From a virus, in IMG/VR virus record IMGVR_UViG_3300033153_004377, positions 1-36,237 of that record: a DNA stretch of 36,237 nucleotides. One strand, given 5' to 3'. The position numbers were made by a program, and so were the translations under genes. The notes beneath the pieces were generated by a model. That model was not told the origin of the DNA, searched no databases, and worked only from the letters and a program-made list of their open reading frames with translations. This document shows, in pieces, positions 1,455 to 19,377 of the stretch (the stretch's first letter is position 1; every line of letters starts with the position of its first letter).

Positions 1455-1908
1455 GTTTCTTTAACTCCCGTTCTATGTACCAAATAGCTTTGTGCATATC
1501 TTGGTCAGATGTGCCTTTAAGATCAGCACGCCAGATGTATTTAAGCGCGTTACCCAGATTAAACCCCATGTGCTCGGTTATCTGTATGCACTCTATGCCG
1601 CTAGGGTGTTGAGTATAGTGAGGTGGATGGTTGACCATATCGGCAGCCGGCTGCTCAGTGCTACGTGCGACAGGGTCTACGTCCCACATGTCTTTTTCTT
1701 TTTGGGTCAGCGCTATACTGTCTGTATTATCAGGGTGTTCTTTAGGGTCCGGTGAGGACATAGGGGGCTCCTTTTCAGGGGTTGTTTGAGTTATACGCGT
1801 ATTAGAAACCTTCGGCATCATCGGTATTTCGTGTGTGCAGTAAGGGCATACCTCGTCAAATCTGACCATGTGTATGCAGTACTTTTCAGGCGGTTGTTGG
1901 CAATTCAT
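1411..1908 (-). CDS. DUF3310-domain protein (nucleotide-kinase-like family)
   Basis: 165 residues. The C-terminal half (about 92-150) carries the DUF3310 signature VNHPPHYTQHPSGIECI..., then ALKYIWRA and a terminal KAIWYIERELKK helix. The domain is widespread in phages and is shared with the T7 gp1.7 nucleotide kinase. An N-terminal Cys/His cluster (C11, H13, C21, C24) could bind zinc. The middle (about 35-85) is acidic and disordered. The start overlaps the preceding nuclease gene by 4 nt (ATGA). A role in nucleotide metabolism during replication is inferred. Confidence 0.8.
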   Translation of the reverse strand: MNCQQPPEKYCIHMVRFDEVCPYCTHEIPMMPKVSNTRITQTTPEKEPPMSSPDPKEHPDNTDSIALTQKEKDMWDVDPVARSTEQPAADMVNHPPHYTQHPSGIECIQITEHMGFNLGNALKYIWRADLKGTSDQDMHKAIWYIERELKKRERQDTHKTQGLVR

Positions 1909-2327
1909 AACATACCTCCTAAAACCATGCTGTTACCTGCCATGAAATCATCGATACCTTTAATAAAGTCGGTACGTGTAACTATGTGGGGCTCCAGCTC
2001 TTCGCGCGTATATTCTTCGTCCCACGCGAGATCGATAAAGCTCACCACTTCGTTTCTGCCGAAGCCTACCGCTACCGCTACGTTAATCCCATTATTATAT
2101 GCGCGTTCTAGCCAGCATTTTTGTAGGGCTGAAAGCTTCTGCGATAGTCGGTATATTTTAGGCATCTGTTTTTCGTATTTATATTCAATCCACAGCGCCA
2201 TATTACGTGATTCGTAGTAGCAATCAGGCGTCCCTGCCGTGTACGGTGTGTACATTGATTGCACGTGGATGTTTGTATTGATACGAGTGTTTATGTATCG
2301 TACAAACGTTGCTTCTGGTTTAGCCAC
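1905..2327 (-). CDS. PD-(D/E)XK endonuclease (VRR-NUC/resolvase-like)
   Basis: The 140-residue protein has the nuclease core GTPDCYYES...LWIEYKYEK, giving the PD...ExK metal-binding triad, followed by a helix with SALQKCWLERAYNNG and a VAVAVGFG strand. This order is typical of small VRR-NUC/phage Holliday-resolvase-like nucleases. It probably cuts branched or recombination DNA during replication or packaging. It overlaps the exonuclease C-terminal fragment by 8 nt and the DUF3310 gene by 4 nt. Confidence 0.75.
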   Translation of the reverse strand: MAKPEATFVRYINTRINTNIHVQSMYTPYTAGTPDCYYESRNMALWIEYKYEKQMPKIYRLSQKLSALQKCWLERAYNNGINVAVAVGFGRNEVVSFIDLAWDEEYTREELEPHIVTRTDFIKGIDDFMAGNSMVLGGML

Positions 2328-3360: not shown

Positions 3361-3390
3361 AATCTCACCCTCCTTTTGGGATAAAATGGA

Positions 3391-3413
3391 GGCGAAGGAA
3401 AATTTCCTTCGCC
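3391..3413 (-). terminator. Inverted repeat, likely intra-operon terminator
   Basis: GGCGAAGGAAA and its complement form a near-perfect palindromic stem (9-10 bp after allowing a loop). It lies 12 nt downstream of the stop of the 244-residue gene. On the minus strand TCCATTTTATCC follows, a weak U tract. Probably a terminator or RNA-stabilising 3' hairpin for the abundant upstream gene. Confidence 0.5.
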
Positions 3414-3425
3414 ATACTTACTTGT

Positions 3426-4160
3426 TTAGCGACGACGTGTCGCTTTCTTTTTAACGGTGCGTTTCTTCACTACTTTAGACTTCGCCGCAGGGGCTTCTGC
3501 CGGAGTAGCTTCAGGCTCAACAGTTAATAGATCTTCCGCTTCACTACGACGAGCGAAATCTTCAGCATAATTTTCATTAGGCTGTGGATTACCGAACATG
3601 AGTGATGGGTAGCTTTTCTCAGGATGGAACATCGCTTCTGTAATAACACGGACAGGCGGCGCTTTAAACATCTTAGCAATACTGCCGACATATGCATCAA
3701 ACGCTTTGATAGCAGTAGGGCTTACTGACATAGTATAAATGTCATCACCTTCTACATTAGGCAGCGTAACTGCAAGTACACGAGTGTTCTTACATGCTTT
3801 ACCATTACCGTCAGAACCAAACTCGTTCATTGGGCAGCTATTACAATCGTCTGCTTGTGGATCAGTAGCGTTCTCACTAGGTGCCATATCGCTAACGGTT
3901 TTGCTGATAGCGAAACAGGCTGGAGCTTCGATGTTGTTTTCGTTGTACGCGTTTTCATAGAATTTATTCTGACTAATGAAGTCAATAATAACAATCTGAA
4001 GCGGCGCTTGGATGATTTGACCATCAGGTAATGTGAACACTTTATCGCGCACTTTAATCTGGTTGGTCGATGGTTTGCCGATACTATCGGCGATGCTCGC
4101 AGCTTCAGCAGCTAGTTGCTCAGTGACATTAGCGAGTTCTTTGGAGTTGGCTTTTGCCAT
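3426..4160 (-). CDS. Conserved phage protein, putative ssDNA-binding protein
   Basis: 244 residues. Residues about 28-75 form a strand-rich segment (VRDKVFTLPDGQ, IVIIDFISQNKFYE). A cysteine cluster follows at about 104-122 (CNSCPMNEFGS...GKACKNTR), then a LAVTLP strand, and the protein ends in an acidic then strongly basic tail (KKRTVKKKATRRR). The Cys pattern C..C...C suggests a metal site. I recall similar proteins in replication modules of podovirus- and siphovirus-like phages, but the ssDNA-binding role is inference. It is followed by a hairpin, as for a highly expressed gene. Confidence 0.65.
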   Translation of the reverse strand: MAKANSKELANVTEQLAAEAASIADSIGKPSTNQIKVRDKVFTLPDGQIIQAPLQIVIIDFISQNKFYENAYNENNIEAPACFAISKTVSDMAPSENATDPQADDCNSCPMNEFGSDGNGKACKNTRVLAVTLPNVEGDDIYTMSVSPTAIKAFDAYVGSIAKMFKAPPVRVITEAMFHPEKSYPSLMFGNPQPNENYAEDFARRSEAEDLLTVEPEATPAEAPAAKSKVVKKRTVKKKATRRR

Positions 4161-18163: not shown

Positions 18164-18229
18164 CTTGGATTCTCTAGTTAATTAAGAGGTGGCCCCTGCC
18201 CTATCGCTTAGGAACAGGGGCACCTACAG

Positions 18230-18302
18230 TTTTGTTAACGGGATTCGAACCCGTTACCGATACATTACAAGTGTATTGCTCTACCAAATGAGCTATAACA
18301 AA
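18230..18302 (-). tRNA. tRNA-Thr (anticodon TGT)
   Basis: 73 nt without encoded CCA. The acceptor TTTGTTA/TAACAAA pairs perfectly, the D-arm is GCTC/GAGC, and the anticodon stem ATACA/TGTAT encloses loop CTTGTAA with anticodon TGT. The T-arm ACGGG/CCCGT has loop TTCGAAT. Discriminator is A. It begins 52 bp downstream of the permuted tRNA on the same strand, so they are probably co-transcribed. Confidence 0.95.
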
Positions 18303-18354
18303 TGAGCTATTTCGATTCGCATAGTCTATCCACAGGTTTTAGTTTAATGTAATG

Positions 18355-18461
18355 CTGTTATCCTGCCACTGGACTACCTCTCGCCGATACGTTCTCCAAG
18401 AAAACGCATTGGCCGAGAGACCGGGAATCGAACCCGGGTCTACAACATAAAATACTGTTAT
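18355..18461 (-). tRNA. Circularly permuted tRNA-Lys (anticodon TTT) gene
   Basis: Reading the minus strand, 18461-18410 is a tRNA 3' half: anticodon-stem 3' side, variable loop AGAC, T-arm CCGGG-TTCGATT-CCCGG, TCTCTCG, G73 and encoded CCA. A 26-nt linker (18409-18384) follows. It folds as a 10-bp hairpin with loop TTG. Then 18383-18355 is a 5' half: CGAGAGG, TA, D-arm GTCC-AGTGGCA-GGAT. The two halves share a perfect 7-bp acceptor (one G-T). Both outer ends carry ATAACAG (18461-18455 and 18361-18355). Joining through one copy gives 74 nt with stem ACAGT/GTTGT and loop ATTTTAT (U33, UUU, A37), and keeps T8-A14, G15-C48 and G18G19. No contiguous tRNA can be drawn here. How the halves are joined is unknown. 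Confidence 0.78.
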
Positions 18462-18477
18462 GACTTTAAGCGAATTT

Positions 18478-18630: not shown

Positions 18631-19377
18631 TTATCCACCAGAATTAATGTATGCGAATAAATATTCGCCAATATGCGCATTTGTTAGATCAACAGAATTC
18701 GCACGTTGTCGAGCTTTTTTAACTGCTCGTAATAATGTGTCGATACGTTTAATACGTACTGCTTTTTCTAAAGGTGTTAAGAAGCCACATATTTTAGTGG
18801 TATCATAACGTGCTACGTTCTGAGTACGAGGCAGTTCGCGAACCTGTGCTGGATGATGTTCATCAGCTGCAACTACAATACGGAATTCAGTATCTTTTTC
18901 TGTTTTAAAACGTACGGGTGCTGTTGTTTTATAAGTACCGGGACGTTCTTGCTCATCTAGCACCCATTTAAATCCGGGAGCGAGCGTGTGGATCTTTTCA
19001 TACAGTTTACGGATATCACCGAGCTTGCTTTCAAGTCCGAGTAAAAACGTCGCTGGGACATCAGCAGCAAGTACGGTACCGTCAATTATGATATCTGCAC
19101 GTGCGTTTTGATTAGATGCGTCTTTTTGTAAAACCGCATCCCAGTACTGGGCGATAGGGTTTATGATGTAATCAAGATTCTCGTCAACAGTTGTTACTAG
19201 CTCAACTGTTTCAGTAGTATTAAGATGTGCTTGCTCAGCATCGAACATATTTAATTTGGTAGTCATACCATTAAATAAGTTTTCTTTGCCGAGAGAACGT
19301 ACGCTCTCATCCATTAGTTTTTTAGCTGCTTGGTGCAGGGTATTCTCGACAGCGAGAACTTCGTATAGTTTTGGCAT
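18631..19377 (-). CDS. Conserved uncharacterised protein (DUF7873-like family, recalled)
   Basis: 248 residues. The block NARADIIIDGTVLAADVPATFLLGLESKL (about 92-120; only key residues listed: RAD, VPxTxLLxLE), then LRKLYEKIHTLAPG, a HHPAQV strand (about 178) and a C-terminal helix ending in NSVDLTNAHIGEYLF match a family I remember from actinobacteria and phages with no known activity. GAGGAGC lies 4-9 nt before the ATG. It directly precedes the tRNA cluster and follows a 195-nt structured leader. An RNA-related role is only suggested by that context. Confidence 0.65.
   Translation of the reverse strand: MPKLYEVLAVENTLHQAAKKLMDESVRSLGKENLFNGMTTKLNMFDAEQAHLNTTETVELVTTVDENLDYIINPIAQYWDAVLQKDASNQNARADIIIDGTVLAADVPATFLLGLESKLGDIRKLYEKIHTLAPGFKWVLDEQERPGTYKTTAPVRFKTEKDTEFRIVVAADEHHPAQVRELPRTQNVARYDTTKICGFLTPLEKAVRIKRIDTLLRAVKKARQRANSVDLTNAHIGEYLFAYINSGG

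Follow-up and report, generated by a model that had tools for sequence, protein, structure and literature searches.

What kind of RNA is encoded by a tRNA gene whose two halves stand in reverse order in a phage genome? The question is raised by the 36,237-bp IMG/VR fragment IMGVR_UViG_3300033153_004377 (the window, that is, the whole stretch analysed), which derives from a tailed phage (P22-like portal and terminase) and which carries, at positions 18461-18355 of the minus strand, a permuted transfer RNA (tRNA) with the 5' to 3' order T arm, acceptor 3' strand, G73-CCA, 26-nt linker, acceptor 5' strand and D arm. An earlier note read this element as a circularly permuted tRNA-Lys(UUU) gene, with halves that would have to be joined by splicing or ligation. 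The permuted architecture is real and conserved, whereas a tRNA-Lys that needs such a route is unsupported, neither U33 nor a ligase being conserved. We conclude that the element is probably the tRNA-mimic tip of a YrlA-type structured non-coding RNA that is encoded together with a protein of the DUF7873 family. The YrlA Y RNA layout was not considered in the earlier reading.

All features of the locus described below lie on the minus strand. The T arm (CCGGG-TTCGATT-CCCGG, 18421-18437) is followed by the acceptor 3' strand TCTCTCG (18414-18420), G73 at 18413 with the encoded CCA at 18412-18410, the hairpin-forming linker of 26 nt that makes up the closed acceptor loop (18384-18409), the acceptor 5' strand CGAGAGG (18377-18383), which is a perfect partner of the 3' strand, and the D arm GTCC-AGTGGCA-GGAT (18360-18374); two copies of ATAACAG are found at 18461-18455 and 18361-18355. 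Every part that the note had described was located where it had been placed. When the ATAACAG repeat was collapsed by hand, the resulting 74-nt sequence was called tRNA-Lys(ttt) by ARAGORN, in agreement with the note, and no normal tRNA-Lys was detected in the window by ARAGORN or by Rfam at gathering cut-offs, the only normal tRNAs being a tRNA-Glu and a tRNA-Thr. The latter, with the anticodon UGU, is located just 3' of the permuted RNA (18229-18302). A strict scanner for permuted tRNAs matched only the window and one relative in 475 kb, in each case behind a DUF7873 gene, and gave no match in 20 shuffles; because the matches are this rare, the permuted tRNA is more than a chance arrangement. 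Furthermore, the fold energy of the 170-nt region is 5.2 standard deviations lower than that of its own shuffles.

An exact DNA search in IMG/VR and a blastn search in INPHARED returned no matches to the element, and relatives were therefore sought via the neighbouring protein. This DUF7873 protein (PF25283; 248 amino acids; Pfam E 2e-67, 227.9 bits against a cut-off of 27) is encoded at 18631-19377, with 169 nt between its gene and the permuted RNA downstream, and is the presumed partner of the RNA. Its first IMG/VR relative (L003, 42% identity) is encoded by a phage that, beyond DUF7873, shares only a terminase (23%) with the window, and that carries a different permuted tRNA at the equivalent place, followed, as in the window, by a normal tRNA. 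Among the DUF7873 phages in INPHARED, which are phages of or associated with Rhizobium, Vibrio, Klebsiella, Arthrobacter, Rhodococcus, Gordonia, Pseudanabaena and Microcoleus, 13 of 14 contain one or two permuted tRNAs in an unannotated stretch behind the gene.

Applied to up to 900 nt behind DUF7873, the strict scanner (which requires the T stem, acceptor pairing, T8, R9 and a D stem with GG) identified the element in 84 of 101 loci from viruses and in 64 of 79 from cellular genomes; the opposite strand gave no match in any of the DUF7873 loci. A covariance model (R1), trained without the window, added 14 viral and 2 cellular loci, giving 98/101 viral and 66/79 bacterial loci, some of which are near-duplicates, so that the counts are not independent events. 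The same order of halves, which the note had proposed to look for in related phages, is a regular feature behind DUF7873. In the window, the model matched the whole conserved RNA at 18325-18473 (53.6 bits, E 5.7e-13). The permuted RNA is often present as two tandem copies, and a normal tRNA follows within 400 nt in 75 of 149 unique loci. Phages, Actinomycetes, Acidobacteriota, Myxococcota and others together contribute about 150 loci in which the arrangement is conserved. The loci without a full RNA are one at a contig end, L081, L109 and mostly Cytophagales genomes. In L081, all that is left behind DUF7873, at around 3390-3450, is the 3' half of a tRNA with its T arm, acceptor and TCCA, possibly a decaying copy.

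Pairing in the acceptor, T and D arms was required by the scanner, whereas an anticodon-type stem and two outer helices were not, which makes the latter better tests of the structure. Still, 15 of the 16 predicted acceptor, T and D pairs show two-sided changes, with freely varying pair types. The anticodon-type stem, in which 5 bp link the end of the 5' half to the beginning of the 3' half, pairs perfectly in 54% of the unique elements (98 of 182), compared to 8% in a control with partners from different loci. In the window, it would pair GTTGT (18442-18446) with ACAGC (18358-18354), the latter overlapping the downstream ATAACAG copy. Beyond this stem follow an internal loop, outer helix 1, a second internal loop and outer helix 2. 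Both helices are supported family-wide when own and swapped partners are compared, with p values of 6e-20 and 3e-15 for helices 1 and 2 in single-copy elements and 3e-16 and 6e-15 in second copies; first copies gave weaker values. The 5' region of helix 1 in the window (AGTC-ATA-ACAG, 18455-18465) holds the upstream ATAACAG copy and pairs with CTGT (18335-18332) and GACT (18326-18323), this helix being weak in the window itself, and the 5' strand of helix 2 (ATTCGC, 18470-18475) pairs with GCGAAT (18320-18315), so that the 3' strands of the two helices together span 18315-18335. Linkers of the relatives range from 1 to 167 nt. The sequences show an RNA whose ends pair at the anticodon side, whose acceptor end is closed by N73-CCA and the linker, and whose 3' half is read first.

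Such an RNA resembles YrlA, in which the tRNA-like domain has polynucleotide phosphorylase (PNPase) and tRNA-modifying enzymes as partners, and Ro60 binds the basal stem of the Y RNA. YrlA is a bacterial Y RNA, a tRNA mimic of 90-150 nt composed of a basal stem formed by the RNA ends and a domain resembling the D, T and acceptor arms (PMC8394870). The DUF7873-linked RNA shares with YrlA (Rfam RF02553) the basal stem, the internal loops, the short anticodon-like stem and then the T arm, closed acceptor and D arm, the tRNA-like domain topping the stem that is formed by the two ends. In two scans, the YrlA covariance model matched the site over its full length in 6 of 8 loci and in 8 of 11 loci, respectively, with an identical helix order in the alignment. 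Unlike YrlA, the RNA adjoins DUF7873, not Ro60, and often comprises two tandem tRNA-like units. TROVE/Ro60 genes were found in 4 of 20 DUF7873 genomes or records, each time at a separate locus. We infer that DUF7873, an unrelated protein family, is the presumed partner of the RNA in place of Ro60.

The two kinds of loci can be compared directly in bacteria and in one phage. Among 151 Nocardia-family genomes, five encode DUF7873, and the five best covariance matches are located directly behind these five genes; the next four sites (58.8, 48.3, 44.0 and 43.6 bits) are each at most about 1.2 kb away from a Ro60/TROVE gene, and many of the matches below 43.6 bits resemble tandem normal tRNAs. In Rhizobium phage RHph_Y65, a single permuted RNA lies behind DUF7873, and three others precede Ro60, of which two have CCA in the acceptor loop. 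The Ro60-linked phage copies carry a protein-side loop motif, TTGCGA on the 5' side and CATCT or ATCTC on the 3' side, that is missing from the DUF7873-linked RNAs (TTGCGA with CATCT in 0 of 182, TTGCGA in 1 of 182). The RHph_Y65 Ro60 protein, used as a query, found no relatives in IMG/VR, and the Ro60-linked comparison therefore covers few loci and copies.

In two loci of Nocardia-family genomes, L247 (around 2037-2393) and L248 (around 1879-2011, minus strand), permuted tRNA units without DUF7873 are followed by Ro60 a few hundred bases downstream, and the inverted repeat GCGGGTGGGC/GCCCACCCGC borders those in L247. In RHph_Y65 (L252, positions 137300-143500 of the record), the three Y-RNA-like RNAs lie at about 1385, 1540 and 2126 of this segment, directly upstream of Ro60/TROVE, and the DUF7873 module is about 6 kb away from the Ro60 locus. 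Deinobacterium chartae, the sole DUF7873 genome among 14 controls, is also the sole one with TROVE/Ro60.

Several results weigh against an RNA of the YrlA type. All YrlA matches are below the gathering score of 69: the best relative reaches 48.7 bits (L103, E 6.6e-8), followed by L085 with 45.0 and L078 and L058 with 43, and the window only 18.1 (E 0.28). The Ro60-linked copies examined are likewise below the YrlA cut-off (best, 37.3). Homology with YrlA, as opposed to a merely shared tRNA-derived shape, is not proven. The minimum free energy (MFE) structure of the window (-58.6 kcal/mol, compared to -52.0 with the family structure enforced) retains outer helix 2 and the acceptor and favours, within the 3' half, a local ATAACA/TGTTGT hairpin that replaces the cross-strand anticodon-type stem; thus, the window is a weak example of this part of the structure. 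Most DUF7873 genes of Cytophagales (Bacteroidota) lack a detectable permuted RNA. Finally, we infer RNA binding by DUF7873 from linkage only, and the protein has no recognised fold: Foldseek searches against the PDB and BFVD with the AlphaFold2 model, a mixed helix-strand fold with a predicted local distance difference test (pLDDT) score of 94.2, gave nothing below E 0.001.

The closest structural neighbour of the model is an uncharacterised protein of uncultured phage cr118_1 (BFVD A0A7M1RW91; probability 1.00, template modelling (TM) scores 0.42/0.56, E 0.006). A relation to the YicC C-terminal domain was weak, occurring in 2 of 16 members and not among the top families of 80 members, and was dropped.

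If the RNA is of the YrlA type, DUF7873 would bind its outer helices and loops, as Ro60 does with Y RNAs, and the tRNA-like tip would dock enzymes that recognise tRNA elbows; in addition to those of the kind known from YrlA (PNPase, tRNA-modifying enzymes), these might be RNase P, the CCA-adding enzyme and 3'-processing enzymes. Less certainly, RNase P and 3' trimming could open the acceptor loop, so that the RNA would consist of two pieces and end in CCA, in the manner of permuted transfer-messenger RNA (tmRNA). Joining of the halves would be unnecessary in such a Y-RNA-like scheme.

The acceptor loop carries signals typical of tRNA ends. CCA is encoded in 91 of 182 unique elements, C74 is present in 192 of 210 (91%), 86 of 95 single-copy elements have a purine at position -2 (about 85-90%), and position -1 is often U, features by which RNase P and 3' processing may cut the loop to give two pieces. 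Encoding of CCA also tracks that in the neighbouring normal tRNAs (Fisher p 0.002 for all loci together, without significance when viral or cellular loci are taken separately). The encoded CCA and the conserved C74 point to a possible opening of the loop in the manner of permuted tmRNA (ssrA; alphaproteobacteria, cyanobacteria and others), in which the 3' CCA strand likewise precedes the 5' strand with an acceptor loop in between, and which functions as two unligated pieces (PMC3978253). Tentatively, and with clearly less confidence than in a YrlA-type RNA as such, DUF7873 and its one or two permuted CCA-ended RNAs could form an undescribed ribonucleoprotein that employs a matured two-piece tRNA mimic, possibly aminoacylated, rather than simply a re-partnered Ro60 particle, in phages and scattered bacterial chromosomes. 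In open-licence papers, we found no description of phage permuted tRNAs or of DUF7873, an earlier description elsewhere being possible.

The same evidence, together with the T-loop TTC and D-loop GG that occur throughout (although both are scanner requirements), also speaks for an RNA that is independent of Y RNAs: a two-piece, CCA-ended and possibly aminoacylated tRNA-like RNA comparable to permuted tmRNA, from which RNase P and 3' processing would excise the linker while the halves stay paired, with DUF7873 acting in translation in an SmpB-like manner. We regard this as rather improbable. The full layout fits YrlA better than tmRNA or permuted tmRNA, Ro60-linked Y RNAs share the CCA-like loop (TCCA, CCCA), and the variable acceptor pairs and N73 do not indicate any single amino acid. 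Unlike permuted tmRNA, the DUF7873-linked RNA has a complete D arm and adjoins DUF7873 instead of SmpB; tmRNA matches are weak and partial, the comparison with RF04321 and other tmRNA families giving 12.9 bits against a cut-off of 47, for the T arm only, and no tag-peptide reading frame was recognised in the RNA.

A true circularly permuted tRNA-Lys(UUU), joined by a ligase, through a bulge-helix-bulge (BHB)-like motif or by self-splicing into a decoding tRNA, is very unlikely, even though ARAGORN accepts the collapsed sequence and the window lacks a normal tRNA-Lys. G73 and C1-G72 do not match what is usual for tRNA-Lys of bacteria. The anticodon loop U33-UUU-A37 that the note had described is not a family feature: the anticodon-type stem leads into a large internal loop and further helices, without a 7-nt loop, and the long loop strands between this stem and outer helix 1 are part of the larger conserved structure. 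A canonical 7-nt loop with U33 can be obtained by collapsing the window alone, and the would-be position 33 is T in 38, C in 37, A in 23 and G in 11 elements. Nor does ATAACAG mark a junction, since an exact repeat of at least 7 nt is present in only 15 of 182 related elements, and the median, 4 nt, equals that of swapped controls. RtcB was found in 2 of 15 DUF7873 phages searched and a T4 Rnl1-type ligase in 2 of 15, with a third below the cut-off; with no ligase consistently present, joining of the halves is unlikely. No group I intron or small ribozyme was found between the halves in Rfam. In red and green algae and in Thermofilum pendens, permuted tRNA genes share with the DUF7873-linked RNA the inverted halves, with encoded or added CCA, and the sequence between the CCA and the 5' end, but ligation at a BHB motif turns their halves into normal tRNAs (PMC3978253), whereas the DUF7873-linked RNA lacks a canonical anticodon loop, a conserved ligase and a recognised BHB-type junction. 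The 7-nt direct repeat might point to a recombination scar, to a tandem tRNA duplicate in decay or to an error of assembly, all of which are hardly credible in view of an arrangement that is kept with compensatory changes in about 150 loci of phages and several bacterial phyla.

Turning from the probable YrlA-type RNA itself to its distribution, portal-based relatives of the window (G003-G011, some of them fragments) contained neither DUF7873 nor the permuted RNA, which fits an accessory module. In the bacterial loci examined, DUF7873 and the RNA stand alone amid ordinary metabolic genes, and the pair is sporadic (the five Nocardia-family genomes given above; 2 of 149 genomes in another set), which fits a horizontally moving accessory module. 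The RNA-less Bacteroidota genes possibly represent a different subfamily. Loci mostly without a detectable permuted RNA include L164-L173, L177, L181 and L182 (Cytophagales and other Bacteroidota); in L164, the next gene starts within about 100 nt of DUF7873. An alignment comprising every DUF7873 protein proved too diverse for a pattern search, which worked with sub-alignments.

Upstream (5') of the permuted RNA, the window contains a hairpin CCGGC...GCCGG at 18552-18526 and the motif TTTTCGTCACAACAGCTTAA at 18511-18492. Similar motifs occur about 73 nt ahead of the T loop in some relatives (a regular expression for an upstream motif was too strict to serve), and in two-copy loci the first tRNA-like unit sits where the window has the hairpin. 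In Klebsiella phage FBKp24 (L049), an annotated 'tRNA-Sup-TTA' at 4018-4097 coincides in part with the 3' half of the second permuted unit, and this tRNA annotation is probably mistaken.

The DUF7873-linked RNA accounts for unannotated gaps beside the gene and for some of the false tRNA calls there, and it provides a functional lead for a protein family without a recognised fold. The existence of cultured Gordonia, Arthrobacter, Rhodococcus and Rhizobium phages makes RNA binding, cutting of the acceptor loop and a role in infection testable. Permuted tRNA mimics are apparently not tied to Ro60, and a second, unrelated protein family seems to have its own Y-RNA-like partner; DUF7873 with such an RNA is common in phages.
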